Assembly (NCBI RefSeq): GCF_007748175.1
Contig: NZ_CP037422.1
Coordinates: forward strand, 7,151,952 to 7,215,951
Length of the DNA: 64,000 nucleotides
Direction: 5' to 3'
From: Gimesia aquarii
GTDB lineage: Bacteria; Planctomycetota; Planctomycetia; Planctomycetales; Planctomycetaceae
How positions within the stretch are numbered: the first letter of the stretch is position 1; each line of letters opens with the position of its first letter. A model generated the notes under the pieces. It had not been told where the DNA came from, did not search any database, and saw nothing but the letters and a program-made list of their open reading frames with translations. Shown piece by piece: positions 5,341-59,944 of the stretch. A program made the translations under genes and the position numbers.

Positions 5341-6551
5341 TTCGTCAATGTCCCAAAAAAGAAGGGCATGAGTTGATGGCCTTTGGGAAGCAGTAAATTG
5401 CTCTTTCCCGCCGCAACTTCATCATAACTGGTAGCCTGATCGGGACGTACATGCGTGCCACAAATTCCAAAAGGCACATAGCCATGGCTATGAGTTTTCG
5501 TTCTCAAAAATGTGGGATGATCAGGGCAAACTAAGAAACGGTACTCGCCTTGCTTTTTTAAGTAATCATGCACAGGCCCTACGATGTGCTCATCGATCAT
5601 TTCCAGGGCTTTGATTTTTTCCTGTACCTCACCTTCATGCGAAGCTTCATCTGTGGCCTCTACATGCACGACGACAAAATCTGTCTTCTTCAGAGTTTCC
5701 ATTGCAGCACGGCCTTTAGCTGCGTAATCGGTATCAGTATAACCAGTGGCCCCTTCGACTTCGATTACTTCCCAGCCGAGTAAACGCCCCAAACCTCTCA
5801 ACAAATCTACTGCTGTGATCACGGCCCCTGTTTTACCGAATTGTTCATGAAAGGGTTTGAGCGCAGGTCTGCTTCCCTGTCCCCATAACCAGATCTGCGT
5901 TGCCGCTGGTTGTTTGTCAGATCGATTTTGATTTTTTGATGATTTTGAAAACAGTTTCTTGCTGCGTTCCATCAGGTCGAGCATTAACTCACTTCCTCTG
6001 CCTGAGGGAAGGTCATGCTGAATTGGTTGGTCGGTTAAATCATGAGGAGGTACTGTGAGTGTCCCTGAATCAAAAGGGGGATCATCTCCACTCTGCCCTC
6101 GATAGATCAATAAATTGCGATAGCTGACGCCTTGATGAAATTCCCATTGCAGATCATCGGCAGTTTCCTCTTGAAGCAAACCAACTAATTCTTCACCAAC
6201 ATCATTGGGAAGTTGAGATGCTGTGAAACTCGCCATGTTCCCCTCAGCAATCGTGACAAAATTACAACGGATGGCCCAGTCATGAGCGCCTAACTCGATT
6301 CCCTGTGCGGCCGCTTCAAGAGGAGCGCGACCAGTATGATAAGTCAGAGGATCGTATCCAAAAAGACTCATTGTTCCCACATCACTGCCGGAGGGCATTG
6401 ATGCAGGCACGGTATCAGTTCTCCCGAGAATCCCTTGAGAAACAATGGCATCCATATGGGAAACCTGGGCCGCCTGCAAAGGCGTCTTGCCACCTAATGT
6501 TTCTTGTGGCTCATCCGCACAACCATCTGGGATTACGAGAACATATTTCAT
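5337..6551 (-). CDS. apgM: 2,3-bisphosphoglycerate-independent phosphoglycerate mutase, archaeal type
   Basis: The 404-residue protein interconverts 3- and 2-phosphoglycerate in glycolysis/gluconeogenesis. It has the alkaline-phosphatase-superfamily metal motif VIPDGCADEP (6-15), the nucleophile region SGSDVGTMSLFGYDP (54-68, catalytic Ser probably S62), TGRAPLEAAAQGI, and late metal ligands in HVEATDEASHEGE and CPDHPTFLRTKTHSHGYVPF. Length and motif order fit the archaeal-type ApgM (about 400 aa) and not the 510-aa GpmI. Many deep-branching bacteria use this form. It is monocistronic and ends head-on with the ferritin-like gene. Confidence 0.93.
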   Translation of the reverse strand: MKYVLVIPDGCADEPQETLGGKTPLQAAQVSHMDAIVSQGILGRTDTVPASMPSGSDVGTMSLFGYDPLTYHTGRAPLEAAAQGIELGAHDWAIRCNFVTIAEGNMASFTASQLPNDVGEELVGLLQEETADDLQWEFHQGVSYRNLLIYRGQSGDDPPFDSGTLTVPPHDLTDQPIQHDLPSGRGSELMLDLMERSKKLFSKSSKNQNRSDKQPAATQIWLWGQGSRPALKPFHEQFGKTGAVITAVDLLRGLGRLLGWEVIEVEGATGYTDTDYAAKGRAAMETLKKTDFVVVHVEATDEASHEGEVQEKIKALEMIDEHIVGPVHDYLKKQGEYRFLVCPDHPTFLRTKTHSHGYVPFGICGTHVRPDQATSYDEVAAGKSNLLLPKGHQLMPFFFGTLTN

Positions 6552-44897: not shown

Positions 44898-45329
44898 ATG
44901 CTGAAATCAGTTTATTTCAGCCTCGCATTACTAAGGGTCTAAATGTGCCAATTGCAGTAATTCTTCTGATTATTCTATCTTCGAAGCACTGCGCTCCTTC
45001 CGAAATATATCGGAGAAAATCTATTTTCCAGAGATCTTTCCCAATTCCGTTTGACTAATGATCAACGTGACCTAGTTTTTGTTGACAGAGAGGTTCTGAA
45101 AAATCTCTCAACAAAACAATCAACTATTTTCCTCCGCCTCAAATCGGGGCGAGGATCTACAGTGCGGCAAGGAAAGCTGGGAGCTTTGAGGGGACCTTGC
45201 CGCACTTTTTTCTTTGAACCATCCTAACTTGATGGTGCTTGAAACATAGATGCTGCATGGTACGTTTGGAAAGGCTTCTAGCGCGATGCAGATAGGCACC
45301 CTCAAGCGGAATTAAAACTGGAACAGCTC
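44898..45329. other. Leader region upstream of the pseudopilin operon
   Basis: These 432 nt have no gene but several RNA folds: CCTCCGCCTC (45131-45140) with GGGGCGAGG (45146-45154), 9 pairs with one bulge; the strong terminator at 45161-45212; CCATC/GATGG (45219-45223 with 45231-45235); and a long-range fold with GGTGC (45234-45238) to GCACC (45296-45300) enclosing CTGCAT (45253-45258) with ATGCAG (45286-45291). A perfect TTGACA (45082-45087) is present but no matching -10 at the normal spacing. See the findings. Confidence 0.6.
45161..45212 (+). terminator. Strong Rho-independent terminator ahead of the pseudopilin operon
   Basis: AGTGCGGCAAGG (45161-45172) pairs perfectly with CCTTGCCGCACT (45195-45206), 12 bp, followed by TTTTTTC. 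The loop contains a further inner stem AAAGCT/AGCTTT. It lies 118 nt before the first pseudopilin gene and 264 nt after the HEAT-repeat gene, so it may end that transcript or be a conditional attenuator. Confidence 0.85.
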
Positions 45330-45929
45330 ATGGCAACCAGAAAACGATGGTTGCAGCGATCCCGCCGCACCGGATTTACTCTGATTGAATCTTTAGTCGC
45401 TGTGACAATTACAGCGATCGCCGGAGCTGCGCTGTTTTCAGCCATTGGCTCTTCTCTTGGATCTACTTACTCCGCCTTAAATAAAACGATTGGAGCGGGG
45501 CTGACAGACCAACTGCTGGATGAACTCGCCGCAGCGAGATTTCCCACCTCCAGTGATTCACGCCCTGCCAGAAGCAGTTCGCGAAAAGATTTTGATGATC
45601 TGGATGACTATCACAACTGGTCTGCTTCACCTCCGGTAAACAAAGACGGGTTCGCATTGGGTAACGAACCGATCACCATTTTGGAACGCTATCCCATTGC
45701 ACGTCCCAGCATCCTGATTCCGGATACAGAATTCTTAAGCAGATTGACGCGAGAAGTGACCGTAGAACGAATCAGACCAGATAACATCATTGGCTGGATT
45801 GTTACTACAGATGATACAGACTTTCGCCGAGTTACGGTAAGAACCAAATTAGCGGCCAGTTCGAGTGCGCCGAGTCACACAATATCAGAAGCAACACGAA
45901 TTTTTAGTTATGTACCACTCTCTCCCTGA
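45330..45929 (+). CDS. Pseudopilin, GspI/PilV-like
   Basis: The 199-residue protein has a type III signal peptide: basic leader (MATRKRWLQRSRRTG) then the cleavage site G15-F16 and hydrophobic helix FTLIESLVAVTITAIAGAALFSAIG, with E20 at position +5. Prepilin peptidase would cut and methylate it. The remaining part is hydrophilic without a known domain. As first gene of the cluster, overlapping the GspJ-like gene by about 20 nt, it is best regarded as a minor pseudopilin of the GspI type. It belongs to the pilus/secretion tip complex. Confidence 0.85.
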   Translation: MATRKRWLQRSRRTGFTLIESLVAVTITAIAGAALFSAIGSSLGSTYSALNKTIGAGLTDQLLDELAAARFPTSSDSRPARSSSRKDFDDLDDYHNWSASPPVNKDGFALGNEPITILERYPIARPSILIPDTEFLSRLTREVTVERIRPDNIIGWIVTTDDTDFRRVTVRTKLAASSSAPSHTISEATRIFSYVPLSP

Positions 45930-46839
45930 TAATTTGAACGCAGAATTGTGCGAGCATGCAAACAGCCCTCTCAAGATTGAGAAGGGCTCTGTGCATTCTT
46001 GCGCAGTCAGGTCGTGGTGCATTCGTAGTGGGTTAACACTCGCTGAGTTGCTCATGGCGATGGCGATCTCATCCATCCTGATCGTGGCTCTTGGAGGCAT
46101 TGTGACAGCCACACAATCTGCCTGGAGCCATACAAAAGGTATTGAAGATTCTCAAGCACAGGTCACTGCGGCTTTTGATCGTATAAAAATGATGGTCTCG
46201 CAAGCAGGCGTTTATCAAATCAGTGGTCAGCCTCCTCAGGTAGGATTGGCAGTCGTCACCCACTCCTGGAACAGTATGGATATCGCAAACACGCTCGTAG
46301 TCTGGGCAGGCGGCCGCAATGGAGGTATCAACAATAATGGTATATTAGCACGTCTTCCCAACATCAATGAATTACTGATTTATACCATTGATCCAAATGA
46401 TTCTCACAACTTGGTGGAGATTGCATTACCTGGTGTCAATTCCACAATTGATTTCAATAGCCCTTCATTCAACAGTACGATCCGATCTGTCATTCAATCA
46501 AACTCCGCAGAATCTGCTTTGTTGAGTAACCGTGTGAAAAAGACTCAATTTATGTTGTCGGGAAGCCCTTGGGGGCCATCTACTGGTAACATTCGATTTG
46601 AAATCATTAAAACTCCTTCTGACGCCAGTCTGAGCGGAGTGAACCCGGGAACCAGTGCATGGATGGAACTCCCCTGGCCACAGGGAACAGCGAGTGCCAA
46701 CAGTGGTTTACGTCAGGTAACCATCAATTATGAAATGCAGTTTGAATCGACAGAACGCTCATCACTGAACGACATTAATTCGTCAACTGCACTTCCATTT
46801 TTTGGGTCAAGTTCGAGGTATTATGCGCATACACCATGA
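45910..46839 (+). CDS. Pseudopilin, GspJ-like
   Basis: ATG at 45910 lies in the end of the previous gene. The frame also reads from GTG 45865, but that start would add residues inside the preceding gene. The 309-residue product has a prepilin site at G41-L42 with LTLAELLMAMAISSILIVALGG, where E46 is the +5 Glu. A preceding 40-residue leader is unusually long. The mature part matches GspJ-type minor pseudopilins by order and size (SHTKGIEDSQAQVTAAFDRIKMMVSQAG). It overlaps the next gene by 17 nt, so translation is probably coupled. Confidence 0.82.
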   Translation: MYHSLPDNLNAELCEHANSPLKIEKGSVHSCAVRSWCIRSGLTLAELLMAMAISSILIVALGGIVTATQSAWSHTKGIEDSQAQVTAAFDRIKMMVSQAGVYQISGQPPQVGLAVVTHSWNSMDIANTLVVWAGGRNGGINNNGILARLPNINELLIYTIDPNDSHNLVEIALPGVNSTIDFNSPSFNSTIRSVIQSNSAESALLSNRVKKTQFMLSGSPWGPSTGNIRFEIIKTPSDASLSGVNPGTSAWMELPWPQGTASANSGLRQVTINYEMQFESTERSSLNDINSSTALPFFGSSSRYYAHTP

Positions 46840-48790
46840 GCAAGTGACAGTGATCTCAAAATCGCTTGACGGTGTTAGAAAGCACGGTCTATCGTACAGA
46901 CTGCGCGCGTCGCGGTCGGGTCTATCCCTGGTTTTGGTGATGTTTACTTTAAGTATGTCGTTGGTTTTGACTTACTCTTTTATTCAAACCCAAAGTATTC
47001 TCACACAAATCTCTGAAAATGGCTCAAAGCGTGATCTGGCGATGAATGCCGCTCGCGCTGGTATGACTGATGCACTTAACCGGATGAACTCGCTTGACTG
47101 GGCAGGAGTCCGTGATCAGTATCAACGTACTTTTCAATCTGATTCTGATGGAAGCAGCACTTATACCGTCTCGTTTGCTGCGTCTGGTAATACTCTCGAT
47201 TCTGTTTTGGAACTTGAAGTTCATTCTCTGGGAGTGTGGACGTCTGCGACAAATAATAACATGCGGTCTGAATACCAAATCACAGCGAAAGTGAAACTGG
47301 TACCCCGATTGGCTGGAAGAACAATACTGCCGGGAGATTCTGCTGACGCGAACGATTCAATTCCGAATGCCGGCCACTTCGATCTCATTACACAATACGC
47401 TCTGTTTGCAGAACGCGGTTCGAATTCACTCATCCTCGATCCCTGTGATCGGATTGACGGGAATCTCTGGCTAGATGACCGATTGAATATGTATGACGAT
47501 CCAGCATGGAGTTCGTCCATCCGTAGTACGTTCATGCAGGACCTGGGAAATCGGTTCGTGACATTTCCCGCTGGTTCAACAAATGTTTCTGATGCGACAG
47601 TTCATTATCCTCATCCCATCGCAGGAAATATTACGTTTTATGAAACACCCTCTTCTTCAGTTCGGAACGATCTTTCCAATCTCAAAGTAAGCTGGTCAAC
47701 CACTGATCAAGCATTGACTATTCCCAGTCCGGACTATTCTCATTTTTCCACCTACCGACTCTATGCTGGTGGCCCGGAATATCAGGCTGTTGCACTTGGT
47801 TCCTCATTATATAACGTGACTTTAGGCCCCACTCCAGATAATCCGCTGGGAATCTTTTACCGGAGTGGCAGTCTCTATGTTTATGACAATGTCATTGTGC
47901 AGGGAACACTCGTCTCTACATCCAGAATCACTTTTTCTGGAAAAGGGATTTACATCACTGCCTTCAACTGGAAAGGTATGGATGGCACACCAATCATCGC
48001 AGACTCAGATCTCTGGCCTCGAATTCCTACACTGGTAGCTGACAAGATTGATTTTGAAAGAGAAACACAAACCACAATTGAAGGTGCCGTTGTCTGCCAC
48101 GACGATTTAGATGGGGGCGGAGGTTCTGTCGCTTATCCGGATGCTTCTGATATTCAATTCACGGGAACTGCAACCGTAAGTTCGATAGAACAACCTCACA
48201 GTATTGTCTCACTTCGTGAAAATCAGTTCCTCGGAAATTTGACCGCTGATGGAAACTATGCCATCTGGCTAAGCACATCGGGGTCAGGAAATACGGGAAC
48301 AACAGGTACATGGTACCCAATCGTCGGTATTGATAATCAAAATCAGCAATTAACGATTCGAGGTGAAATCAATCATGTGGCACCAACCGGTTATCGAATC
48401 AGGCTACATAAACAAGAACTTTCACAAATACGTGGCCCTGTCTGTGCAGAAAGGTTTAACTTTAGGCGCTTGAACGAATGGGTTTTGTCTTCTTCGCTTT
48501 GGAATAATAGAGCATATTTCTGGGACTTGGAAAATCAACTCAGAGTTATTTTAGGATATTCGCTGATTGGATTCAGCGAATGGCTCGAAATTCCGCTGAA
48601 TTACCCTGGTTGGGATTCCTATTATCAACAGTACGGATTGAACCTCGAACCCACACTGCACATTCAACATCTGGTAGACCATGAATACCGATGGGAACCA
48701 CCGTTATTTCAACCATATGACGGAGGAGAAGCTAATGCCGACTATTCCGGATACCGCTGGTCACTGATTGATTGGAGTGAATCTCCCTAG
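46823..48790 (+). CDS. Large GspK/PilX-like minor pseudopilin component
   Basis: Start at ATG 46823 with GAGGTATT upstream; the frame could extend to TTG 46802. The 655-residue product has a hydrophobic helix after G33 (LSLVLVMFTLSMSLVLTY) that lacks the +5 Glu, as GspK and PilX do. The next helix contains RDLAMNAARAGMTDALNRMN, as in PilX. The remainder is large and beta-rich, with repeated VYDNVIVQGTLVSTSRITF and FERETQTTIEGAVV segments. Usual PilX is about 200 residues and GspK about 320, so this is unusually long. It may cap the pilus tip or bind a substrate. Confidence 0.72.
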   Translation: MRIHHEQVTVISKSLDGVRKHGLSYRLRASRSGLSLVLVMFTLSMSLVLTYSFIQTQSILTQISENGSKRDLAMNAARAGMTDALNRMNSLDWAGVRDQYQRTFQSDSDGSSTYTVSFAASGNTLDSVLELEVHSLGVWTSATNNNMRSEYQITAKVKLVPRLAGRTILPGDSADANDSIPNAGHFDLITQYALFAERGSNSLILDPCDRIDGNLWLDDRLNMYDDPAWSSSIRSTFMQDLGNRFVTFPAGSTNVSDATVHYPHPIAGNITFYETPSSSVRNDLSNLKVSWSTTDQALTIPSPDYSHFSTYRLYAGGPEYQAVALGSSLYNVTLGPTPDNPLGIFYRSGSLYVYDNVIVQGTLVSTSRITFSGKGIYITAFNWKGMDGTPIIADSDLWPRIPTLVADKIDFERETQTTIEGAVVCHDDLDGGGGSVAYPDASDIQFTGTATVSSIEQPHSIVSLRENQFLGNLTADGNYAIWLSTSGSGNTGTTGTWYPIVGIDNQNQQLTIRGEINHVAPTGYRIRLHKQELSQIRGPVCAERFNFRRLNEWVLSSSLWNNRAYFWDLENQLRVILGYSLIGFSEWLEIPLNYPGWDSYYQQYGLNLEPTLHIQHLVDHEYRWEPPLFQPYDGGEANADYSGYRWSLIDWSESP

Positions 48791-48808
48791 AACACTAAAT
48801 AAAATCTT

Positions 48809-49456
48809 ATGCAGAAGTTTCATCAGAATGAATATCAATGGCAGAAATACTCGCCTGCCTCAATGAGCAAAAGGCAGGCGAACTTGCTGCGCGCAAATCA
48901 ATGTTATTCTTCAGAAAGAGCCGCCTTTACGCTGGTGGAACTACTAATCGTCATCATGTTGATCTCGATTCTTCTCTCTGTCGCTCTCGTTTCCACAGAA
49001 ACCAGTCCGTCGCATTCACTGGAAACGACTGCCCGTGCAGTGGCCGCCGATTTGCGTCTGGCACGCAGTTATGCCATTAAATTTAACTCGGAATACACGG
49101 TCAGATTTAGTTTGGATTCACAATCATATGAAATCCAACATACGGGATCTGGTAATCTGCCTGTTCCGCAAGATCATCTGGCAGGTACAGCCGCTGCATC
49201 TGATAAATATATCAAACAATTTCAAATACAATCTATGAATCTGCCAGACCAGGTTTCTCTCAGACAAGTCCAACTAAAAACATCAGAAACTAATGTGAGT
49301 GACCTTGCATTTGGACCTCAGGGAGGCACAGGGCCAGGTCGAAATGAAGATACAGTTCTTATACTGTCAACAGTCAGAAATGGAACTACTTTTTATATTC
49401 CGATTACGATTTCCTGGATCACCGGGCAAGCATGGATTGAAGACATACAAATATAA
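48809..49456 (+). CDS. Pseudopilin, GspH-like
   Basis: The 215-residue product has a 39-residue leader and then FTLVELLIVIMLISILLSVALVS, with the cleavage after A39 and Glu at 44. A GspH/FimT domain follows: SHSLETTARAVAADLRLARSYAIKFNSEYTVRFSL. The end, WITGQAWIEDI, resembles GspH C-termini. It lies 18 nt after the GspK/PilX-like gene and 38 nt before pilM. It would be a minor pseudopilin. The long leader, also seen in the GspJ-like protein, is unusual. Confidence 0.84.
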   Translation: MQKFHQNEYQWQKYSPASMSKRQANLLRANQCYSSERAAFTLVELLIVIMLISILLSVALVSTETSPSHSLETTARAVAADLRLARSYAIKFNSEYTVRFSLDSQSYEIQHTGSGNLPVPQDHLAGTAAASDKYIKQFQIQSMNLPDQVSLRQVQLKTSETNVSDLAFGPQGGTGPGRNEDTVLILSTVRNGTTFYIPITISWITGQAWIEDIQI

Positions 49457-49494
49457 ACGAATTAATCGAGCCAAATTAACTCTGAGAAAATATC

Positions 49495-50568
49495 ATGATC
49501 TCTATACAACGTTCACAACACAGTCCGATTGGCTTACAACTGGGCCCCAGTTCTGCCACTTTGGTTCAATTAGCGGGATCGCGCCAAAACCGTGTCGTCC
49601 ATGCCATCGCTCAAGAACAATTCGAATTAGATGAAAAACAGTCGATCGAGGAGCGAGATGCAAACATTGCCGCCCAGATACGTCAGATTTTATCTGACCA
49701 TCATTTTAAAGGGCGTCACGTGATCAGTTGCCTGGGGTCGCAGGAACTATTTATCCAAAACGTCAGACTGCCTCAATTACCTGTAGATGAAATTGCCAAA
49801 GTTGTGGCATGGGAAGCAGAGGAGCGACTGCCTTATCCGTTAGCAGAAGCAGAGTTGCGTCATTTGCCAGCCGGTCAAGTTCGACAAGAATCAAATACCA
49901 AACAGGAAGTCATTCTTCTAGCATGTCATACTGGAATCCTGAAACGACATCTGGACCTGTTAGAACAAGCCGGTTTGACAGCAGTCGCCATTGATGTAGA
50001 ACCATCAGCAACACTCCGATGCTTTCATAATTCTTCAAACGACGTGCAAACGAATGCAACCAATTGTTATCTCAATTTTGGAGATGCCGCCACAACTGTG
50101 ATTTTTGCGGATCAGCAAAACGTATTATTTCTGAAATACATTATGCAAGGCAGCAACCACCTCGACCATGCTGTTGCAGAAAATCTTGACCTGCCATTGA
50201 AAGAAGCAATTCGCCTTCGAAAGATCGTTACCAATTCACCAACATTAGATGCCAGCGATGAATTGCACCGCTCGGTTATCGACTCGATTCGTTCCATTTT
50301 GGAAACGATCAGTACGGAAGTTGAAAACTGCTTACGGTATTACAAAGTTACCTTCCGCGGGAAAAAACTGGATCAGCTTATTGTCACAGGAAATGAATCA
50401 AGTCCGTGGTTGATTGAATTCTTGTCGGATCGTTTAAGTACAGAATGCAAAATGGGCAATCCCTTTGAAAGTCTGAAATGTTGGCCGACATCAACTTCGA
50501 TTTTGGAACGTCCTGGTAGATGGACTACGGCGATGGGATTGGCCATGAAAGAAAAAAGCAATTCATGA
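49495..50568 (+). CDS. pilM: PilM-like cytoplasmic actin-fold component
   Basis: The 357-residue protein is an ASKHA-fold PilM: SPIGLQLGPSSATLVQLAG (10-28), LPQLPVDEIAKVVAWEAEERLPYPL, VILLACHTGILKRHLDLLEQAGLTAVAIDVEPSATLR, and NCYLNFGDAATTVIFADQQNVLFLKYIMQGSNHLDHAVAENL. The last part contains LDQLIVTGNES. In pilus systems PilM binds the N-terminal peptide of PilN and forms a ring around the motor. It is followed at 97 nt by the pilN-like gene. Confidence 0.88.
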   Translation: MISIQRSQHSPIGLQLGPSSATLVQLAGSRQNRVVHAIAQEQFELDEKQSIEERDANIAAQIRQILSDHHFKGRHVISCLGSQELFIQNVRLPQLPVDEIAKVVAWEAEERLPYPLAEAELRHLPAGQVRQESNTKQEVILLACHTGILKRHLDLLEQAGLTAVAIDVEPSATLRCFHNSSNDVQTNATNCYLNFGDAATTVIFADQQNVLFLKYIMQGSNHLDHAVAENLDLPLKEAIRLRKIVTNSPTLDASDELHRSVIDSIRSILETISTEVENCLRYYKVTFRGKKLDQLIVTGNESSPWLIEFLSDRLSTECKMGNPFESLKCWPTSTSILERPGRWTTAMGLAMKEKSNS

Positions 50569-50665
50569 TTTGACCAAATTGAAATAATGCATACCGAAAT
50601 TAACTTTTTTACATAACACCGGACGAAACTGAGATATCCGGAATGAGCCCGCAAAGGGTAAAACC

Positions 50666-51403
50666 ATGATACCTGAAATAGATTTTTTACCAGCAAGTTA
50701 TCGCGAAGTACGAAGACGTCACCGGAATCGAATCTGGCGACGGACTATCGTTCTGATTTTCCTTGTCCTGGTGACTTTGGGAACGGTACGCCAAAGAGAA
50801 ATTCAACATAATCTTCTTACACAAAAAAAAGATCTGGAAGAACGTGCGCGCCTTATGAACGCACAACTGGAAGACCCGGATCAACTCAATCAAAAAATCA
50901 AAATTACTGAGATACGAGCTAACTTGCTTGCCGCTCTTCACCTGGATGAATCACCGGCGCAGTTGTTGTCCATCATCAGCAATACGCTACCAGAGTTTGT
51001 TTCTTTAGACGAATTTCACTTCTCGTTTGAAAAAGTCTTTGTCAAAAAGAAATCAATACCGAATAAAGTTCCCGATAAAAACGTAACCGAAATGATACCT
51101 GCTCTGGTAGATCTGCAAAACTTGAAAGAGCAGCACGCACGAGAGAATTTAGTCATCAACGTACAGGGAATGTCTCCCGATCATCTTTCGATTTCGCATT
51201 ATATGTCAAATCTGGATCAGCTGGGACTATTTCGAGAAATCGATCTTGTTCAATCAAATGAAATGGCTTTTGAAGGTCAACCTATGCGTGTATTCCGCCT
51301 TCGAATGGTCGTGAACGCACCAGGAATGTATGTTCCACAGGTCAATCACCGAAGTACTGCTGGATTGGACCTCTCAATCACAGGAGGATTCAAAAATGAA
51401 TGA
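50666..51403 (+). CDS. pilN: PilN-like inner-membrane alignment protein
   Basis: The 245-residue protein starts with IPEIDFLPASYREVRRRHRNR, a PilN-type N-terminal peptide that PilM binds, followed by one transmembrane helix (TIVLIFLVLVTLGTVRQ, about 28-44) and a coiled coil (HNLLTQKKDLEERARLMNAQLEDPDQL). The rest is periplasmic. The C-terminal part has SISHYMSNLDQLGLFREIDL, like the PilN ferredoxin-like domain. Its end overlaps the pilO-like start by 8 nt. It connects PilM to the periplasmic PilO/P assembly. Confidence 0.82.
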   Translation: MIPEIDFLPASYREVRRRHRNRIWRRTIVLIFLVLVTLGTVRQREIQHNLLTQKKDLEERARLMNAQLEDPDQLNQKIKITEIRANLLAALHLDESPAQLLSIISNTLPEFVSLDEFHFSFEKVFVKKKSIPNKVPDKNVTEMIPALVDLQNLKEQHARENLVINVQGMSPDHLSISHYMSNLDQLGLFREIDLVQSNEMAFEGQPMRVFRLRMVVNAPGMYVPQVNHRSTAGLDLSITGGFKNE

Positions 51404-52004
51404 AAAATTACGTCGCGACAGCTTAATCACAATTATCAGCCTTGCTGTAGTAGTTGCTGTTTTTACTTTTGTTGTCTATCTACCAGGTTTGAAAAATAAA
51501 CAACAACTGCAAAAAGAAATCACAGAGATTCAACAATCAATTAGTGAAATTCCTAAAAAGGTTAAACACCTGGAACAACTTCATCAGCAGTTAAATCAGC
51601 AGCAAGCATTTATTGACAGGCTCACAAAACGAATCCCGTCAGATAGAGATACACACGAAGTATTACAAAGGGTTGCGTTACTTGCCAAACAATCTTCCCT
51701 GACCGTTTCGGAATTAAACCCGGGAGAGTTTGTTGCACAAGAAACGTATCTAAGACAGCCTTTTGTGTTAAATGTTGAAGGCCCTTATAGCGGCCTGGTT
51801 CATTTTTTGAATGGGTTAGACCAAGAGCAACGTTTGTTTACTATTTCAGATGTTTCAATCTCAAAACAAAATGGGGCAAATGAAGGGTCTGTTAAAGGAA
51901 TTGTAGAATTGTCGGTCTACGTATTACGCGATAACCAGACAGATTTTTCGGATTTTACCGAAAACAGGATTAGCAATGCGTTTCTTTCAGCCGATAACAG
52001 ATAA
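51396..52004 (+). CDS. pilO: PilO-like inner-membrane alignment protein
   Basis: ATG at 51396 is chosen because AGGAGGATTCAAAA precedes it and the reading begins at the end of pilN. The 202-residue protein has one transmembrane helix (LITIISLAVVVAVFTFVVYLPG), a coiled coil (NKQQLQKEITEIQQSISEIPKKVKHLEQLHQQLNQQQAFIDRLTKRIP) and a ferredoxin-like domain with LPGL...SLTVSELNPGEFV and YSGLVHFLNGLDQEQRLFTISDVSI. Such proteins dimerise with PilN. A 123-nt gap follows before the PilP-like gene. Confidence 0.82.
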   Translation: MNEKLRRDSLITIISLAVVVAVFTFVVYLPGLKNKQQLQKEITEIQQSISEIPKKVKHLEQLHQQLNQQQAFIDRLTKRIPSDRDTHEVLQRVALLAKQSSLTVSELNPGEFVAQETYLRQPFVLNVEGPYSGLVHFLNGLDQEQRLFTISDVSISKQNGANEGSVKGIVELSVYVLRDNQTDFSDFTENRISNAFLSADNR

Positions 52005-52127: not shown

Positions 52128-52784
52128 GTGAAATCATTCAGTCAACAATTATTACATGACTTAAAAGTAAGCTGGCAGAAAACATTAGTGTTGTGCCTCT
52201 TATTTTTGGTTGGATTGTATTTCTGGATTCCACCTCTCTATCGTGCAGTCCGCGGGACTTCTGGTGCTGCCATTGTTCCTGAAAAAGTGAAATCTGTCGC
52301 CGTCCCACCGCGCCCTCCCGTCAAAACAGAAATGAGTTTCGCGCAAGATGAAACGGTAGAAGAAGTAAGGCATTCCTGGGAAAAGTTTGATTCATTGATG
52401 CAGTCAGATCCATTAGTTCAATCCCTTCAAATGGGAGCGGTTCAAAAAAATCCCTTCGCCGTCAATCGAGATCAATTTTCTCCACCTATCTTATTTGCGG
52501 AAGAACCTGTTAACGCTAAGAGCGATGCAAAACAACAAGTCAAAAAAGAAGTTTTGGTTCTGCCAAAAGATCTTGTACTAAAGACAACCATCATCGGAAA
52601 AAACCGACGAGCGGCGATTATCAATAACAAGATGCTCTACGAAGGCAAAACATTCGAGCATAAAAACGTGACATACGTACTAGAACGAGTAGCAGCCCGA
52701 AACGTGACTTTAAGACAAGGTGAGCAAAAATTTGAACTAAAAATTCAGAACGATCCTTCAGCATTTATCAAATTTGCACAATAA
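52128..52784 (+). CDS. PilP-like periplasmic linker protein
   Basis: The 218-residue product starts with GTG at 52128. One transmembrane helix (KTLVLCLLFLVGLYFWIPPLYRAV, about 18-41) is followed by a Pro/Glu/Asp-rich linker and a C-terminal beta domain (VLVLPKDLVLKTTIIGKNRRAAIINNKMLYEGKTFEHKNVTYVLERVAARNVTLRQGEQKFEL). That domain resembles the homology region of PilP/GspC that binds secretin N0. The name PilP-like is given by position and shape, not by strong similarity. It is between pilO and the secretin gene. Confidence 0.65.
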   Translation: MKSFSQQLLHDLKVSWQKTLVLCLLFLVGLYFWIPPLYRAVRGTSGAAIVPEKVKSVAVPPRPPVKTEMSFAQDETVEEVRHSWEKFDSLMQSDPLVQSLQMGAVQKNPFAVNRDQFSPPILFAEEPVNAKSDAKQQVKKEVLVLPKDLVLKTTIIGKNRRAAIINNKMLYEGKTFEHKNVTYVLERVAARNVTLRQGEQKFELKIQNDPSAFIKFAQ

Positions 52785-52844
52785 ATAGTTCGTATCACTG
52801 GCCTAATAGTATTGATTCGAACGATCATGGATGATGGTCGAAAC

Positions 52845-55196
52845 ATGAAAAGACAATTTTTTATACCTGCATTTTGGGCAACACTGACTGGGCTATCGCT
52901 GCTATTGATTGCCGCGATGACTGATGTCAAAACCCCTCATGCTCTATTTATTTCACCTCAACATCAGGCGAAAACACAACGCGCTGAGATTGGGTTGGTT
53001 GTCAGCAAAAAGATGGCGTTGCCAGAAGCGGAACCGCAGACATCTGTTTCAAATCTGAATACGAGCACGAAAGCAATTCCACAGCAACAGACTCCGCAAA
53101 CAGCAGCGACACTTCCAGAGACTCAAACGCAAACGGGTTCACTTCAAAAGAAAACACCCCGATCGCGGATTCTGGTTGAACCTGGAATCGAAATTTCCAC
53201 TGCTCCTGAAACTGATGTAAAGCGAGTACGTTCTGTACAATTTAATGTGGCTTCCAATTCAGACCTGAAAACGCGTGAGTCAGAACCTTCCAAAATGGAA
53301 CTGCGTTTGGCTAGTTTGACCAAACAAGTCGATCGGCTCGCGAATCTGCAACTCCAATCTCGTCAACAATCCAACATAGAATTAGCACAAAATACGGACC
53401 GGCTGGAACAGGCAACGAAACTACTTCAACAGATGCAGCAAATGAATCAGTTGCGTGATCTAGAACGCAAGCTGGACAGCATGCAGCAAAAGTCGGAAGC
53501 AAATTCAACTGATGCAGAGAAAAAAACAACTCCGCAGAGCACTGAAGCACCTCAAACGGAACAGTCCGAGGGCACTACTAAAAAAAAGAATCAGCCACTT
53601 CTCAAAGTGAGCCCTAACAATGATTCAAAGGAAACGTTTTCTTTACAAATTCAAGATGCAGAAATTATGCAGGTTCTGGATATGCTTGGGGAACTTTCCG
53701 AAACAAACATTCTAGCGGGGCAGGGCGTGACGGGTACGATTACCGCTAATTTAAAGAACGTCACTCCTGCACAAGCTCTGGATGCGATTTTGCGTTCGCG
53801 CGATTTAACTTCAGAAAAAGAGGGTGAGTTTATTTACGTGATGACACAGGCAGAAATGGAACAGAAAAAAAAGTCCAACCGCAAGGTGATCACGAAATTA
53901 TATACTCCTTTCTATGTGAGCGCTAAAGAATTACAAAACCTGATTACACCTTTATTGACAGAAAATGTCGGGCTTGTTTCATTAACTACTCCCAGTGAAA
54001 TTGGTATCTCGCCCGATGCAACGCAAGCTGGCGGTGACTCATTTGCACAGAATGACTCCATTGTTGTTCGCGATTATCCTGAAATCATAGAAGAAGTTGA
54101 CCATTTACTGGAAAAAATGGACGTACCTCCAATGCAAGTCGTCATCGAAGCCATGATCATCAGTGTGCTGCTTACAGATGACATGCGATTCGGCGTGAAC
54201 TTTGCGATGTTGGGAGATAATGGTCGAAGCTTGCTTGTAGATGGCAACGGTCAGACCTTAAACAACTCCAGTGGTTTTCCAGGCTCTGGTGCGAGTTCAA
54301 TTGTTCCACCGACAGGACAGTTTATTGCAGACGTCGCTGGCCTGAAATACGGATTTTTGCGCGGTGATATTAGTGGATTCATCGAAGCCCTGGAAGACAT
54401 TACCGAAACGAACCTGATCGCATCACCTCAGCTACGTGCTTTAAACAAACAGAAAGCCGAATTGATCATCGGCGATCGAATCAGTTATTCCACCATCACA
54501 CAAAATGGAAATACCTCGATTCAGAATGTCAACTTTCTGGACTCGGGTATTGTTCTCAACATGCGTCCCTTTATTACCCCCGATGGACAAATTCGCATGG
54601 AAATTCATCCGGAACGAAGTACTGCTACAATCAGTGAGGTAACGGACCTGCCGGATTTACAAACAACAGAGGTTACTACCAATGTCATGGTTCGCGATGG
54701 CCATACCGTAGTCATCGGTGGTTTGATCGAAGAACGAGCCAATAATACAAAAAATCAGGTCCCTTTTTTAGGGGCGATTCCTGTGATTGGCAATGCATTT
54801 CGTCTTCAACGGGAAACACTCAGACGTACGGAACTGATTATTCTGATTACTCCCCGCATCATACATGCTGAGGCAGCTCGGGCTGAGGGAGAAACACTAG
54901 AGTACGAGGCAGCAGAACGCATCGCAGCGTTTAAAGAAAACTTTCTGCCCATCAATCAGGTACGCATTGTTCAATCACACATCAAGCAAGCCAAAAAATA
55001 TCTGAGAATCGGCAACTTGCCTAAAGCAAAGTTGCACATCAATACTGCAGTTCGCCTCGATAAGAACAATATCGAAGCGATTCAATTACAAAAATACATC
55101 AAAGAAGCATTGAAAAATCGAAATCGAAGCCTGATTGGTCTACCCCCTACACAAGCGACAGAAGTACATATTCCTTCGCTGGAAGGAGATCCTTAA
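52845..55196 (+). CDS. Secretin (GspD/PilQ-like) with C-terminal helical extension
   Basis: ATG 52845 gives a signal-like N-terminus (MKRQFFIPAFWATLTGLSLLLIAAM); TTG 52812 or ATG 52827 could add up to 11 residues. After a coiled-coil linker rich in Gln (about 130-260), an N-domain (FSLQIQDAEIMQVLDMLGELSETNILAG..., STN-like) and then the secretin ring domain follow: VVIEAMIISVLLTDDMRFGVNF, ALNKQKAELIIGDRISY, VTTNVMVRDGHTVVIGGLIEE, PFLGAIPVIGNAFR and ELIILITPRII. The last 110 residues are a helical, TPR-like extension (YLRIGNLPKAKLHINTAVRLDKNNIEAIQLQKYI). It forms the outer-membrane pore. Confidence 0.9.
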   Translation: MKRQFFIPAFWATLTGLSLLLIAAMTDVKTPHALFISPQHQAKTQRAEIGLVVSKKMALPEAEPQTSVSNLNTSTKAIPQQQTPQTAATLPETQTQTGSLQKKTPRSRILVEPGIEISTAPETDVKRVRSVQFNVASNSDLKTRESEPSKMELRLASLTKQVDRLANLQLQSRQQSNIELAQNTDRLEQATKLLQQMQQMNQLRDLERKLDSMQQKSEANSTDAEKKTTPQSTEAPQTEQSEGTTKKKNQPLLKVSPNNDSKETFSLQIQDAEIMQVLDMLGELSETNILAGQGVTGTITANLKNVTPAQALDAILRSRDLTSEKEGEFIYVMTQAEMEQKKKSNRKVITKLYTPFYVSAKELQNLITPLLTENVGLVSLTTPSEIGISPDATQAGGDSFAQNDSIVVRDYPEIIEEVDHLLEKMDVPPMQVVIEAMIISVLLTDDMRFGVNFAMLGDNGRSLLVDGNGQTLNNSSGFPGSGASSIVPPTGQFIADVAGLKYGFLRGDISGFIEALEDITETNLIASPQLRALNKQKAELIIGDRISYSTITQNGNTSIQNVNFLDSGIVLNMRPFITPDGQIRMEIHPERSTATISEVTDLPDLQTTEVTTNVMVRDGHTVVIGGLIEERANNTKNQVPFLGAIPVIGNAFRLQRETLRRTELIILITPRIIHAEAARAEGETLEYEAAERIAAFKENFLPINQVRIVQSHIKQAKKYLRIGNLPKAKLHINTAVRLDKNNIEAIQLQKYIKEALKNRNRSLIGLPPTQATEVHIPSLEGDP

Positions 55197-55198
55197 AC

Positions 55199-56260
55199 AT
55201 GGCTTCCAATAACTGTTCCTACTTACGATCTCTGCTTCAACTGTTTTGCTTTGCTCCGCTTCTCTGCTGTGGTTGTCAGCTCGTTCCTTATTCCACTTCG
55301 TCTTCTGTAATGAATCAGGCACCGGAAACTAAGGACTCTCAGCAGGAAAATCTTAACGTAGAAAAAACGAGTGATTCTCCTTTCAATCTGAAGGCAAATG
55401 AGCTCGTCCAGCAGGCGCTTGGTCATTATTCGAATGGTGAATTAAAACAAGCAAAAATTCTTCTGGCATCAGCTCGAGAGATAGACCCCGGTCATATTGG
55501 TACATTCGAAATCGAAGCACAGCTTTCATATGACATGGGAGATCAAAACCAGTTTCTACAGTCATTGCGCGCGATTCGTGCAGCAAGCCCACATGATTCC
55601 GAAAAACAGAGTGCCATCGGAACTCTCTTTTTTCAGGCAGGACGAACCGAGGAAGGTATTTCCTGTCTGAAACGCGCTATTGAATTAAAACCATATAATG
55701 AAGATTATGCTCTCAAATTGGCGGCATTCTATGAACAAACGGGGATGACTGACGAAGCTCAGAATGTACTCTTACGGGCTTTACACACCACGCCGGGCAG
55801 TCGTCGGCTTCCCATTGCTCTAGGTCGCGTTTGTGAAGCAAACCAGCAGTGGGACCAGGCGAGAATCTATTATGCCATGGTTGTAAATCACTTCCCCAAA
55901 AATCATGTCTGGCGGAAGCATTTTGCTCGATGTCTGTACCACTCAGAACATTATTCCGAAGCATTTGAACAATTTTCTCTCTGTCAGAAAAACGATCCAG
56001 AATCACTTTCACTTTCGGAAATGATTGCGTTTGGAGATTCAGCGCTACGCATAGGGAACCTTGAGAAGGCCCAGCACCTTTTTGATCAGATATCCGCTAA
56101 CCATAAAAGTCAATTACTCCACGTGGAAATATTACGAGGATTATGTGCGATAAACCGCGGTCAGAATATCAGTGCAAAAACCATTATCGATACAGCCCGT
56201 ACAAAGTGGCCTACTGACCCCACTCTATTGCAAGTCGCATCCTTGCTGCCCGCTCAATAG
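55199..56260 (+). CDS. TPR-repeat lipoprotein, candidate pilotin or secretin partner
   Basis: The 353-residue product starts two bases after the secretin stop. A hydrophobic N-terminus (SLLQLFCFAPLLCCGC, lipidation probably at Cys26) suggests a lipoprotein, though the lipobox is not canonical at -3. TPR repeats follow: ANELVQQALGHYSNGELKQAKILLASAREIDPGH, SAIGTLFFQAGRTEEGISCLKRAIELKPYNEDYALKLAAFYEQTGMTDEAQNVLLRALHTTPG, and EHYSEAFEQFSLCQKNDPESLSL. Pilotins of the PilF/PilW kind are TPR lipoproteins that place secretins, and the C-terminal extension of the neighbouring secretin has a similar helical character. The role is inferred from position. Confidence 0.78.
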   Translation: MASNNCSYLRSLLQLFCFAPLLCCGCQLVPYSTSSSVMNQAPETKDSQQENLNVEKTSDSPFNLKANELVQQALGHYSNGELKQAKILLASAREIDPGHIGTFEIEAQLSYDMGDQNQFLQSLRAIRAASPHDSEKQSAIGTLFFQAGRTEEGISCLKRAIELKPYNEDYALKLAAFYEQTGMTDEAQNVLLRALHTTPGSRRLPIALGRVCEANQQWDQARIYYAMVVNHFPKNHVWRKHFARCLYHSEHYSEAFEQFSLCQKNDPESLSLSEMIAFGDSALRIGNLEKAQHLFDQISANHKSQLLHVEILRGLCAINRGQNISAKTIIDTARTKWPTDPTLLQVASLLPAQ

Positions 56261-56285
56261 GCGAGCCCCTTGCTTAATGCAAAAC

Positions 56286-56317
56286 ATGAACAAATCAGTA
56301 CTTCTTGATTTGTTCAT
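56286..56317. repeat. Perfect 12-bp inverted repeat after the TPR lipoprotein gene
   Basis: ATGAACAAATCA (56286-56297) and TGATTTGTTCAT (56306-56317) pair perfectly around an 8-nt loop. No T-run follows. It lies 25 nt after the TPR gene stop and 174 nt before the sensor kinase gene. It may end the first transcript or be an operator. Confidence 0.75.
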
Positions 56318-56490
56318 TCCATTCTCGATTACAGAATTGGACAACCTGCATTTTGTAACCTAGATTTAGGTAGTGAGATACCTCCCTCTCTCATCGCTAG
56401 AGGTCTGAAAAGTTATCTCTTGATCTGGAAGACGTTTATGTGTTCTTCGATTTCAGTAGAACGTAAAAACTACTGAGAAAGTAATCGGCA

Positions 56491-57957
56491 ATGAAAAGCT
56501 ATAGTAAATACTGGTTCCTCGTATTGCTGCTGTTAGTAGTGAGCTGCTTAGATAGCCTCTTGATATCTACACAGTTTATGAGCCCGTTATTTGCGCTCGT
56601 AATCTCGCTGATTGCATCGTTAGCCGGTTGGTTCTGGTTGGTCAAAACAATAGAACAAGACCGCGATCAAATCGCTTCCTATTTAAGAAATCCAGACTTA
56701 ATACGCCCAGGCTTCCAGCATAAAAACTTTTTTGGAAATATTTTTGCAGAAGCAATTCAAAAAATCGAGGATTCTGATAACGATTTAGTTTCCACAAAAC
56801 AAGTTAAAACGATGCTCAAGGCCCGTTTGAATACTTCTCTCAAAAAAGAACTTCTAATGGAATCCGTGATCAAACAACTGGATTATGGAATCCTGATTTT
56901 TGACGCGCAACATGAGCTTGAATTTTCAAATCCTGCCGCTGATCCATTTCTGATGGACCAGGATGAGCAAAACCAAAACTATTCAGACTCCAGCTTGTCA
57001 CTCAGCAAAGCACTAATAAATAATGCCATTATTCCCGAGCTAGCCAAACTACTCACAAAGACGATTGAACGTAGAGACGCCACGCTTCGCAGACGAGCAG
57101 AATTCGAACTCGCATCCAATGATATTACCAGTTACTATCGAGCTGTTGCCACTAATCTCTGGGATGAAAATCAGTCAATACTGGGTACAATGATTGTCGT
57201 TGAAAATATTGGTGAAGAACAGAATGAAAAAACGAGACATGCTGAATTTGTGTCCTCAGTAGCGCATGAGTTAAAAACACCGATGTCGGGAATCAAAGCT
57301 TATGTCGAAATGCTTCTGGATGGTGACTGTGATGAACAGGAAGCACAAGAACTATACGGATTTATGAATGATCAGATTGATCGTCTCACGCGATTGGTAA
57401 ACAGCATGCTCAATCTTGCGAGAATTGAAAGTGGCGTCATTGAAATCAAACGACACGATCATGAGTTAAACGATATTTTGAAAACCGCCGCAGATGTAAT
57501 CGCCCCCAATGCAGCAGAAAAAGACATTACATTTATCACAGAATTAAGTGATCTTTATTTACCCGTGCATGTAGACAATGACATGTTAGGTCAGGCGATT
57601 ATCAATCTTTTATCGAACGCAGTTAAATATACACCTAACGGACACGAAGTACGCCTGCGGAGTCGAATGGAAGATGCTTCTGCTGTGATTGAAATTCGCG
57701 ATACAGGGATGGGTATACCGGAAAACTCCTTACCCCATATTTTTGATCGATTCTATAGAGTTCCCGAAAACAATAGTTCGGCAGCCGGGACTGGTTTGGG
57801 GCTGGCATTAGTCCACTTTATTGTTACTAATGTGCACAATGGTTCGATCTCAGTTCAGTCCAAGGTGAATGAAGGGACCTCTTTTAATATTACTATTCCG
57901 CTGGGTCACCAGGAAAAGAAAAAAGTAAGGCAGGTCGCCTCACCAGTGAATGTCTGA
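56491..57957 (+). CDS. Membrane sensor histidine kinase
   Basis: The 488-residue protein has two transmembrane segments (about 7-25 and 31-52) with a short loop, then a PAS-like region (about 120-240: LMESVIKQLDYGILIFDAQHELEFSNPAADPF). HisKA begins FVSSVAHELKTPMSGIKAYVEML with the phospho-accepting H259. HATPase_c has the N box INLLSNAVKYTP (371-382), G1 DTGMGIP (404-410), F box HIFDRFYRV and G2 GTGLGLAL (433-440), so it looks active. It is the first of four signalling genes inside the pilus locus; the response regulator follows after 58 nt. Confidence 0.95.
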   Translation: MKSYSKYWFLVLLLLVVSCLDSLLISTQFMSPLFALVISLIASLAGWFWLVKTIEQDRDQIASYLRNPDLIRPGFQHKNFFGNIFAEAIQKIEDSDNDLVSTKQVKTMLKARLNTSLKKELLMESVIKQLDYGILIFDAQHELEFSNPAADPFLMDQDEQNQNYSDSSLSLSKALINNAIIPELAKLLTKTIERRDATLRRRAEFELASNDITSYYRAVATNLWDENQSILGTMIVVENIGEEQNEKTRHAEFVSSVAHELKTPMSGIKAYVEMLLDGDCDEQEAQELYGFMNDQIDRLTRLVNSMLNLARIESGVIEIKRHDHELNDILKTAADVIAPNAAEKDITFITELSDLYLPVHVDNDMLGQAIINLLSNAVKYTPNGHEVRLRSRMEDASAVIEIRDTGMGIPENSLPHIFDRFYRVPENNSSAAGTGLGLALVHFIVTNVHNGSISVQSKVNEGTSFNITIPLGHQEKKKVRQVASPVNV

Positions 57958-58015
57958 GGAACACAGCTCAAACAAGTTCCAAGTGAAAACAGTTATTTGA
58001 CAAAGAAAGTAAAAA

Positions 58016-58405
58016 ATGGTTCCTCTCATTTATGTTTGTGATGATGATTCACATATTGTTCGAGCAATTTCAATGAAGCTCAAGAAAGCAGGTTTTGAAG
58101 TCGAAGGCTTCCGTGACGGTTTCTGTTGTTGGGAAAAAGTTCAACAACAAGCCCCGGATATGATTATCACCGATTTACAAATGCCGCGTATGAATGGCTT
58201 GGAACTCTGTGGAAAAATTCGCACTTTTCCAAGTACACAAACCATTCCTGTTACGTTATTAACCGGTAAAGGTTTTGAATTCGATCATGATGAATATATG
58301 CAAACATTAAAAATAAATAACGTCATGGTGAAGCCCTTTAGCCCCAAAAAATTATTAACACAAGTCCAAGAAAGCCTCAACATCACTAATGATGTGATTG
58401 CTTAG
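58016..58405 (+). CDS. Single-domain response regulator
   Basis: The 129-residue protein is a CheY-like receiver only: CDDDSH (D9-D11) for the acidic pocket, D53 in IITDLQMPRMNG as phospho-acceptor, T83 in LLTGKG and K106 in VKPFSP. No output domain is present, so it must act by protein contact. Its neighbours suggest it may talk to the kinase upstream and to the diguanylate cyclase or a motor component. The gene lies 36 nt before the GGDEF gene. Confidence 0.94.
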   Translation: MVPLIYVCDDDSHIVRAISMKLKKAGFEVEGFRDGFCCWEKVQQQAPDMIITDLQMPRMNGLELCGKIRTFPSTQTIPVTLLTGKGFEFDHDEYMQTLKINNVMVKPFSPKKLLTQVQESLNITNDVIA

Positions 58406-58441
58406 ACTCCCAACAATATAAACTTACTGAAAATATCTACC

Positions 58442-59944
58442 ATGCGAAATTATTATGCTGCCATCCAGTTCTGGTCCTATGCACTGTTGGTAGTTTGCCT
58501 TTGTCCGCTCGCCGTTTTGCTGGGTACGTACATGGACTGGCCACTTGGTGCAGCTCCGTTGCTACTACTCACGCTACCCACGATTCTGGCAGCAGTGTCT
58601 TCACCTCGGATCTGTTACTGGACGATTACTGTACTAGCTGTTTGCGCCTGTTTTGCTGAAATCCTTTTCAGAACCGATCTCAGTGAAGTTAACACCACTT
58701 ATCTCTTCAGCATCCTGAGCGCTGCTGTACTCGTAGGAATGACGTTATTGATTGATCTCTATATCGGCAAACTGCGAGGGACCATTTCTCAGTTTGATGC
58801 ACAAAACGATGAATTGGTTCGTCGGCTCTATGAATCCCAGAAAGAATCCACATCTAGTTTCGATAACAAAGACTCAGTTTCTGAAACAGAATCAGATGAA
58901 ACTTCTGATACGGACTCTGCAGAGAAGGATGTTAACTATCCGTTATTGTTATTGACACTGCAGGATATTGGCCGACGTATTTCTACCAACCAATCTAATG
59001 AGTCACTGATTCCTACCGTCATCAGCACTGCTAAAGCTTCTTTGCAATGTGAACATTGTCAGGTATATCTATGGGATAGCAAAGTACGTGCTCTGAAAAA
59101 TCCGCTCCCTGCTCGATCGCGTGACAAACTGGATTACCGACCCGATTCAAATCAGGGAGTTGCTGCATGGGTGATCGAGAATCGTCAGATTGTGATGCGA
59201 AACGATGCAGATCAGGACTATCGACTGAAAAGGATCTTGGAAGAAGATCCTCATATGCCGGATGCCATTGCTCCTTTGACAGTTGGTTCAGAATTAATCG
59301 GTTTGCTGATAATCGACAAGGTCGATCTTGACTCTCCTACGATTGGAAGATTGATTTATATTCTTTCGAATATCTATGCCTTGGGTATTAAGAATTCTCA
59401 GTTATTCAAACGCATTGAAGAGATGGCGAGTCGCGATGGTTTAACGGGATTGTTTAATCACGCAACCTTCCAGGAAAAACTGCAACAACTGACAAAAACA
59501 GCGGATGCACAATCGACTACGCTCAGTATCATTATGAGTGACATCGATCATTTTAAATCATTCAATGACACGTTCGGTCATCAGGCAGGAGATTTTGTTT
59601 TAAAAGAAGTAGCCCGTATCTGGAAAACAGTGATGCCGGAAAATGCTATCGTTGCTCGCTATGGTGGTGAGGAATTTATCGGTGTGCTGATTGATCACGA
59701 GTATTCACAGGCAATGCAGATTGCTGAAGACTTACGAGAAACACTGGAAAATTGTCCTATCTTGTTTGAGGGACAACAACTTCAAGTAACAGCCAGCTTT
59801 GGAGTGACTGAATATAAACATCCTGCTTCCAATACCAACGAGTTCGTTCGAATTGCAGACGAATACTTATACAAGGCCAAAGAAAACGGCAGAAATCGAG
59901 TGGTAGGAATGGCTCCAAATTCGACAAGAAAACCTAGTTCATAG
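58442..59944 (+). CDS. Membrane-bound GAF-GGDEF diguanylate cyclase
   Basis: The 500-residue protein has three to four transmembrane segments (about 10-30, 37-53, 58-76, 86-107), an acidic linker (about 138-162), a GAF domain (about 165-320, LTLQDIGRRISTNQSNESLIPTVIS) and a GGDEF domain (RDGLTGLFNHATF at 331-343, SDIDHFKSFNDTFGHQAGD 366-384, RYGGEEF at 406-412). The GGEEF catalytic site looks intact. The feedback I-site RxxD expected at 399-402 reads PENA, so product inhibition is probably absent. It makes c-di-GMP. The response regulator and the STAS gene flank it. Confidence 0.94.
   Translation: MRNYYAAIQFWSYALLVVCLCPLAVLLGTYMDWPLGAAPLLLLTLPTILAAVSSPRICYWTITVLAVCACFAEILFRTDLSEVNTTYLFSILSAAVLVGMTLLIDLYIGKLRGTISQFDAQNDELVRRLYESQKESTSSFDNKDSVSETESDETSDTDSAEKDVNYPLLLLTLQDIGRRISTNQSNESLIPTVISTAKASLQCEHCQVYLWDSKVRALKNPLPARSRDKLDYRPDSNQGVAAWVIENRQIVMRNDADQDYRLKRILEEDPHMPDAIAPLTVGSELIGLLIIDKVDLDSPTIGRLIYILSNIYALGIKNSQLFKRIEEMASRDGLTGLFNHATFQEKLQQLTKTADAQSTTLSIIMSDIDHFKSFNDTFGHQAGDFVLKEVARIWKTVMPENAIVARYGGEEFIGVLIDHEYSQAMQIAEDLRETLENCPILFEGQQLQVTASFGVTEYKHPASNTNEFVRIADEYLYKAKENGRNRVVGMAPNSTRKPSS

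Follow-up and report, generated by a model that had tools for sequence, protein, structure and literature searches.

In a 64,000-nucleotide stretch of the Gimesia aquarii genome (the window), a terminator hairpin lies downstream of a HEAT-repeat gene and on the same strand. What does a terminator do there, directly ahead of a pseudopilin operon? A sequence-only reading had taken the region for a structured leader with an internal terminator, suited to attenuation or a riboswitch. Several of the elements it described were borne out: the bulged stem with its nine pairs, the 12-bp terminator with perfect pairing and a T-run, and the position ahead of the pseudopilin operon (Table 1). Its judgement that the segment matches neither c-di-GMP-I nor c-di-GMP-II agrees with Rfam, which gave no match at the gathering threshold over the window and, with E up to 10, only chance matches far below the cut-offs. 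The regulatory layout fared differently. The comparative data described below suggest that the "internal terminator" would be the 3' hairpin of a small RNA.

Table 1. Features of the putative small RNA gene and of the gene cluster downstream, in window coordinates.
Feature	Position	Strand	Remarks
Small RNA promoter: TTGACT (45051-45056), 16 nt, TAGTTT (45073-45078)	45051-45078	+	Same boxes and spacing in 77/92 loci
Predicted small RNA	45085-45211	+	Set by promoter and terminator; start placed 6-7 nt past the -10 box
5' hairpin GAGAGG/TCTCTC, genus form	45088-45109	+	Paired in 87.5% of cells (16 genomes); two-sided changes absent
Bulged 9-bp hairpin CCTC-C-GCCTC/GGGGC-GAGG, genus form	45131-45154	+	97.9% paired, one two-sided pair (16 genomes)
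12-bp terminator stem	45161-45172/45195-45206	+	Conserved core of the RNA family
Inner hairpin AAAGCU-GGG-AGCUUU, loop 45179-45181	45173-45187	+	
Bulge GAGGGGA	45188-45194	+	Most conserved unpaired stretch; exact in 82/92 distinct elements
Terminator U-run	45206-45211	+	At least four consecutive T at the end in 89/92 distinct elements
Genus-only long-range hairpin, arms GATGGTGCT / AGGCACCCTCAAGCGG	45231-45309	+	Arms show almost no variation among 16 genomes; two-sided change in one pair
Neighbouring operon: pseudopilin 1 (45330), pseudopilin 2, PilX-like, GspH-like, PilM (49495), PilN, PilO	45330-52004	+	Pfam N_methyl, GspH, PilM_2, PilN, PilO
Rest of the cluster: T2SSB-like, secretin (52812), TPR protein (55199), histidine kinase (56491), response regulator (58016), GGDEF protein (58442)	52128-59944	+	Pfam

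A DNA search with positions 45040-45420 as query matched 31 of 59 genomes. Within the genus, 16 of 17 members (the window's own genome included) matched over most of its length, at 72-100% identity. Nearly all matches outside the genus were limited to about query positions 121-180 (approximately 45160-45219), at 79-94% identity; three others were short and lay near the pilin start. What is conserved is therefore the terminator hairpin. A simple terminator scan missed it because its loop is longer than 8 nt.

The hairpin has strong covariation support. Alignment A1 comprises 21 of 29 listed elements, with same-genus near-duplicates omitted. Across these the 12-bp stem carries compensating pair changes around an unchanged interior; 8 of 18 hairpin pairs changed on both sides, and 98.8% of cells are paired. 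None of 500 shuffles reached the observed level, and pairing fell to 34-52% once the helix partners were slid out of register. The inner helix (helix 3) showed one-sided changes only in A1 and two-sided changes in 2 of 4 pairs in a wider set, A4. Beyond the genus, conservation is limited to this 12-bp hairpin (45161-45211). A conserved short peptide encoded across the hairpin appears to be ruled out by single-base length changes in the inner helix between genera.

The folds between the terminator and the pilin start behave differently, and it is on these that a switch would depend. The CCATC/GATGG and GGTGC (45234)/GCACC (45296) stems of the sequence-only reading are present and compete, since both use the GG at 45234-45235, and the overlapping pairing of GCTTGA (45237) with TCAAGC (45302) is there as well. 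However, these stems are found in the genus only, with little or no covariation. Among 16 genus genomes, GGTGC/GCACC pairs in 96% of cells and has a single two-sided change, and CCATC/GATGG hardly varies and is hence uninformative (the alignment of two rows is off by one column there). The CTGCAT/ATGCAG pairing within the long fold exists in the window but is not conserved, with 38% of cells paired. A 231-nt segment folds better than shuffles (z = -2.31); the post-terminator part, 45213-45335, does no better than shuffles (z = -0.86). A riboswitch made of post-terminator folds was rejected on this shuffle-level folding, the lack of conservation of CTGCAT/ATGCAG and the near-invariance of the other stems. 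A covariance search in planctomycete genomes, which the sequence-only reading had proposed as a check, found the terminator hairpin widely within the class. The competing folds that attenuation or a riboswitch would need are genus-only and mostly without covariation, and the conserved unit is instead a promoter, one or more hairpins and a terminator. In the 16 genus genomes, near-invariant arms (GATGGTGCT and GCACCCTC-AGC) flank a diverging interior between terminator and pilin start; this hairpin may control pilin translation or be a protein site.

Upstream of the hairpin, the pattern TTGAC(N)-N16-TAnnnT occurs in 77 of the 92 loci with enough sequence, and the two boxes are 16 nt apart in nearly all loci. 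Control searches found the same pattern in 2/94 regions downstream, 0/92 on the reverse strand and 0/85 further upstream. The window's promoter was not picked up by a consensus promoter scan. Outside the window's family, the RNA unit is 80-87 nt long and has two hairpins: a 5' hairpin from the predicted start with the G-rich loop UUGGGGAG, followed by the terminator hairpin with its bulge GAGGGGA. The 5' part is longer and variable in the window's family, and the two forms share no conserved 5' half.

Covariation extends over the full two-hairpin RNA. In A4 (24 rows), 19 of 24 pairs changed on both sides and 93.1% of cells are paired, in an alignment that was model-fitted to its own structure, was seeded with elements picked for GGGGAG and includes two false matches (L153 and L154). 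On each of five measures, none of 500 shuffles equalled the observed value. A further set, A3, was limited to the short transcripts whose 5' part contains GGGGAG (22 of 26), so that loop conservation in it is partly chosen. A stand-alone bacterial small RNA should have its own promoter, its own terminator and a conserved structure with compensating changes, and all of these are found here (promoter in 77/92, T-run in 89/92, covariation in both A1 and A4). Tandem copies of the RNA lie 220-560 bases apart in three loci of genus g317 (L130-L132), and in L131 and L132 each copy has a promoter match.

We then have to ask how widely the RNA occurs. A covariance model of the hairpin, R1, detected it in 143 of the 170 family genomes (116/130 of good quality) and in 49 of 58 genera. 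Within the class Planctomycetia, R1 matched 165/397 genomes (156/339 of good quality) and the two-hairpin model R2 matched 163/397; a few class matches at E of 1e-4 or above are doubtful. A phylum-wide draw gave 38 matched genomes of 392, a figure that still includes five outside the class that we do not count as true members. Two of these (L153 and L154) proved on visual inspection to be ordinary terminators that lack the bulge, and the other three (L155-L157) were judged by rescoring with R2, which gave weak scores (21.6-23.2 bits). There is usually one copy per genome, with two or more in some g317 genomes; second matches at the same place on the opposite strand are echoes of the hairpin. 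Four very distant loci (L161, L162, L177 and L178) do not have the GAGGGGA bulge, and L161, L162 and L177 retain the 5' loop. Either the bulge is dispensable or these are false members.

Phage carriage was looked for, and no match to the RNA was found in viral contigs. A contig-wide scan yielded 14 stretches, far below the genome search, and is not used here to set a taxonomic limit. Four loci from a pattern scan (L066, L069, L073 and L074) were duplicates of genome contigs and were excluded from the list of 74 elements. One contig titled Candidatus Nealsonbacteria (L064, JABMRB010000114.1) carries the planctomycete RNA together with pseudopilin genes and is probably mis-binned.

In the window the RNA precedes a cluster resembling type II secretion and type IV pilus systems. 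Its pseudopilin 2 scores slightly below the N_methyl cut-off, the T2SSB match is below its own cut-off and the PilX-like protein has no Pfam match. To see how general this arrangement is, flanks were compared at loci hand-picked across genera and families. Of 71 loci, 39 are followed on the same strand by a gene of the same cluster, and the other 32 have none within 1 kb. The first such gene is pseudopilin 1 in 20 loci, the secretin in 13, the TPR protein in two, and the GGDEF, kinase, GspC-like and GspH-like genes in one each. These labels come from profiles built on the same loci (E 1e-3), those for TPR, kinase, regulator and GGDEF being generic, and the "GspH" of L064 is a weak frame overlapping the element, with pseudopilin 1 next. 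Pseudopilin 1 also follows in 6 of 20 further loci. The 39 linked loci suggest that the RNA has a role in cis as well.

The last possible pilin start codon lies only 17-43 nt past the element in seven loci (L061, L121, L104, L161, L144, L147 and L175). This gap leaves no room for another promoter, which makes read-through of the terminator likely in those genomes; with the start codon so close, read-through probably also feeds the operon.

Other loci have quite different surroundings. Outside the window's family, a gene named from its sequence as nadC directly precedes the RNA in the same orientation, in 27 of 91 loci (L063, L104 and L144 among them). Convergent neighbours include genes for a LysM protein (L098), BatA (L113), a DUF1232 protein with a response regulator (L122) and a sigma factor (L101); in L137, L143, L100 and L103 the convergent frames lack any Pfam match and may not be genes. 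In L093 (from base 5358), L140 and L131, the gene after the RNA appears to be a secretin with its N-terminal part retained and the pore domain lost. Judged from their sequences, these genes look as if the cluster had eroded in some lineages.

We searched 27 genomes, mostly unlinked ones, for the cluster elsewhere. All 27 encode a long-frame PilM (708-924 aa). Further PilM matches, in other and mostly shorter frames like the window's 357-aa PilM, occur in 11 of them (G543, G710, G021, G461, G345, G625, G754, G439, G660, G572 and G706). Strong partners of the window's secretin (E 1e-40 or better) were found in G569, G572, G746, G660, G754, G543, G461, G625, G592 and G710. In the single-contig genomes G481 and G017 there was no second PilM, and the best secretin match reached only 5.5e-21 and 7.7e-25, respectively. 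Both genomes have the RNA (loci L122 and L101), and no secretion/pilus cluster was found in either, indicating that the RNA survives apart from the cluster. Its retention beside convergent or unrelated neighbours, or where no cluster was found, favours a stand-alone small RNA.

We therefore consider it probable that a small RNA gene occupies positions 45051-45211, complete with promoter and intrinsic terminator. The gene belongs to a family spread through the class Planctomycetia, and its product would act as a free RNA. Comparative sequence analysis supports the structure, the promoter, the terminator, the wide conservation and the usually single copy. It looks like a regulatory RNA that has apparently not been described: it has no Rfam match, and our literature search found no description of this RNA in planctomycetes. 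Transcription would run from about 45085 to about 45211. The exposed G-rich loops would be the contact points of the free RNA, and may pair with C-rich mRNA segments or bind a protein. Where the gene directly precedes the secretion/pilus-like cluster, part of the polymerases would pass the terminator and transcribe the cluster, and the RNA promoter would thereby double as the operon promoter.

Could the terminator itself be a sensor? By analogy with the HMP-PP (thiS) riboswitch, the conserved bulge and loop might bind a ligand or protein and so set read-through into the secretion/pilus operon, with c-di-GMP as a candidate signal in view of the GGDEF protein at the end of the cluster. A real terminator with a conserved interior is what such a riboswitch would have, and the architecture has a precedent in the thiS motif (PMC6478431). 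The tight linkage to one cluster in 39/71 loci, the start codons directly past the U-run in several genomes and the GGDEF gene within the cluster point the same way. However, a sensor of this kind should always stand ahead of the genes it regulates, and 32 of 71 loci have no cluster gene next, some RNAs face convergent or unrelated neighbours, and others persist where no cluster was found. The thiS motif, according to PMC6478431, is associated exclusively with genes of its own pathway, whereas the association here is non-exclusive. Nor did we see a fold that would open the terminator; the 5' loop and the terminator's 5' arm are both G-rich and cannot pair. Taken together, a terminator-embedded sensor is unlikely, if still worth keeping in mind.

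CsrA offers a different partner. The RNA might sequester proteins of an enlarged CsrA family through GGA motifs in its loops, as CsrB and RsmZ do. CsrA (PF02599) matches occur in all 397 class genomes, often in 5-16 copies and with 15 in the window's genome; a literature search on CsrA with Planctomycetes or Rhodopirellula found no account of multi-copy CsrA. Transcripts hold about four GGA each, compared with 2.8 in shuffles of 26 short RNAs and 3.4 in shuffles of 40 long RNAs. This excess stems only from the conserved hairpin, and the 5' part shows none (1.08 versus 0.94, and 1.02 versus 1.41). The core that contacts the protein is A(N)GGAX (PMC4005645), but in none of the conserved loops (UUGGGGAG, CUNGGAG and GAGGGGA) is GGA preceded by an A at a distance of one or two bases. 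In addition, genomes without the RNA are also rich in CsrA (7-12 copies in many of family f2), and carriers in f104 have only 2-4. The absence of A(N)GGAX and of GGA enrichment elsewhere lowers the CsrB-type reading to a doubtful one and makes a protein partner as such no less likely. It is comparably improbable that the RNA has a dual role, in which two GGGGA loops of the free RNA are read by the expanded CsrA family through non-canonical recognition and the terminator also gates the secretion/pilus-c-di-GMP cluster.

That the hairpin is a mere, functionless 3' end of the HEAT-repeat transcript fits its co-oriented position downstream of that gene, but is very hard to credit when the upstream gene varies (nadC in 27/91 loci, others elsewhere) and promoter, bulge and loop are retained. 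The sequence-only reading had allowed that the hairpin might only end the upstream unit; it does end a unit, but that unit appears to be its own RNA gene from about 45085.

As a small RNA gene, the locus has practical appeal. A single-copy structured RNA present in 116/130 good family genomes and 156/339 good class genomes is probably a core regulator, and a gene of about 130 bp can be defined for deletion. Because it is linked to a secretion/pilus cluster that includes a GGDEF protein, attachment or surface behaviour would be the first phenotype to examine. The case also suggests that a conserved loop inside a terminator can be the sign of an RNA gene instead of a switch.

Small RNAs that base-pair through a seed in a hairpin loop exist, for example RepG of Helicobacter, which uses a C/U-rich motif. 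The planctomycete RNA resembles the RepG type in having a change-intolerant motif in the loop, or terminator loop, and an intrinsic terminator as its 3' end. Unlike that of RepG, its motif is G-rich. With CsrB and RsmZ it shares small size, GGA in loops and a CsrA-rich lineage; it differs in that the conserved loops do not contain the A(N)GGAX core and the sequence constraint extends beyond GGA. The Rhodopirellula-1 motif is also a candidate RNA from Planctomycetes with no Rfam number in the table of Weinberg 2010 (PMC2864571), where that motif is listed for Proteobacteria too and as probably cis-regulatory. A literature search found no further source pairing "Rhodopirellula-1" with "RNA motif", and the planctomycete RNA may or may not be the same as the motif outlined in that table. 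The thiS motif (PMC6478431) is alike in having a conserved interior within a classic intrinsic terminator near one functional gene set. Compared with thiS, the planctomycete RNA shows no alternative aptamer fold or pseudoknot among the folds we found; it has instead a close promoter of its own, a second hairpin in most families and the ability to persist without the gene set.
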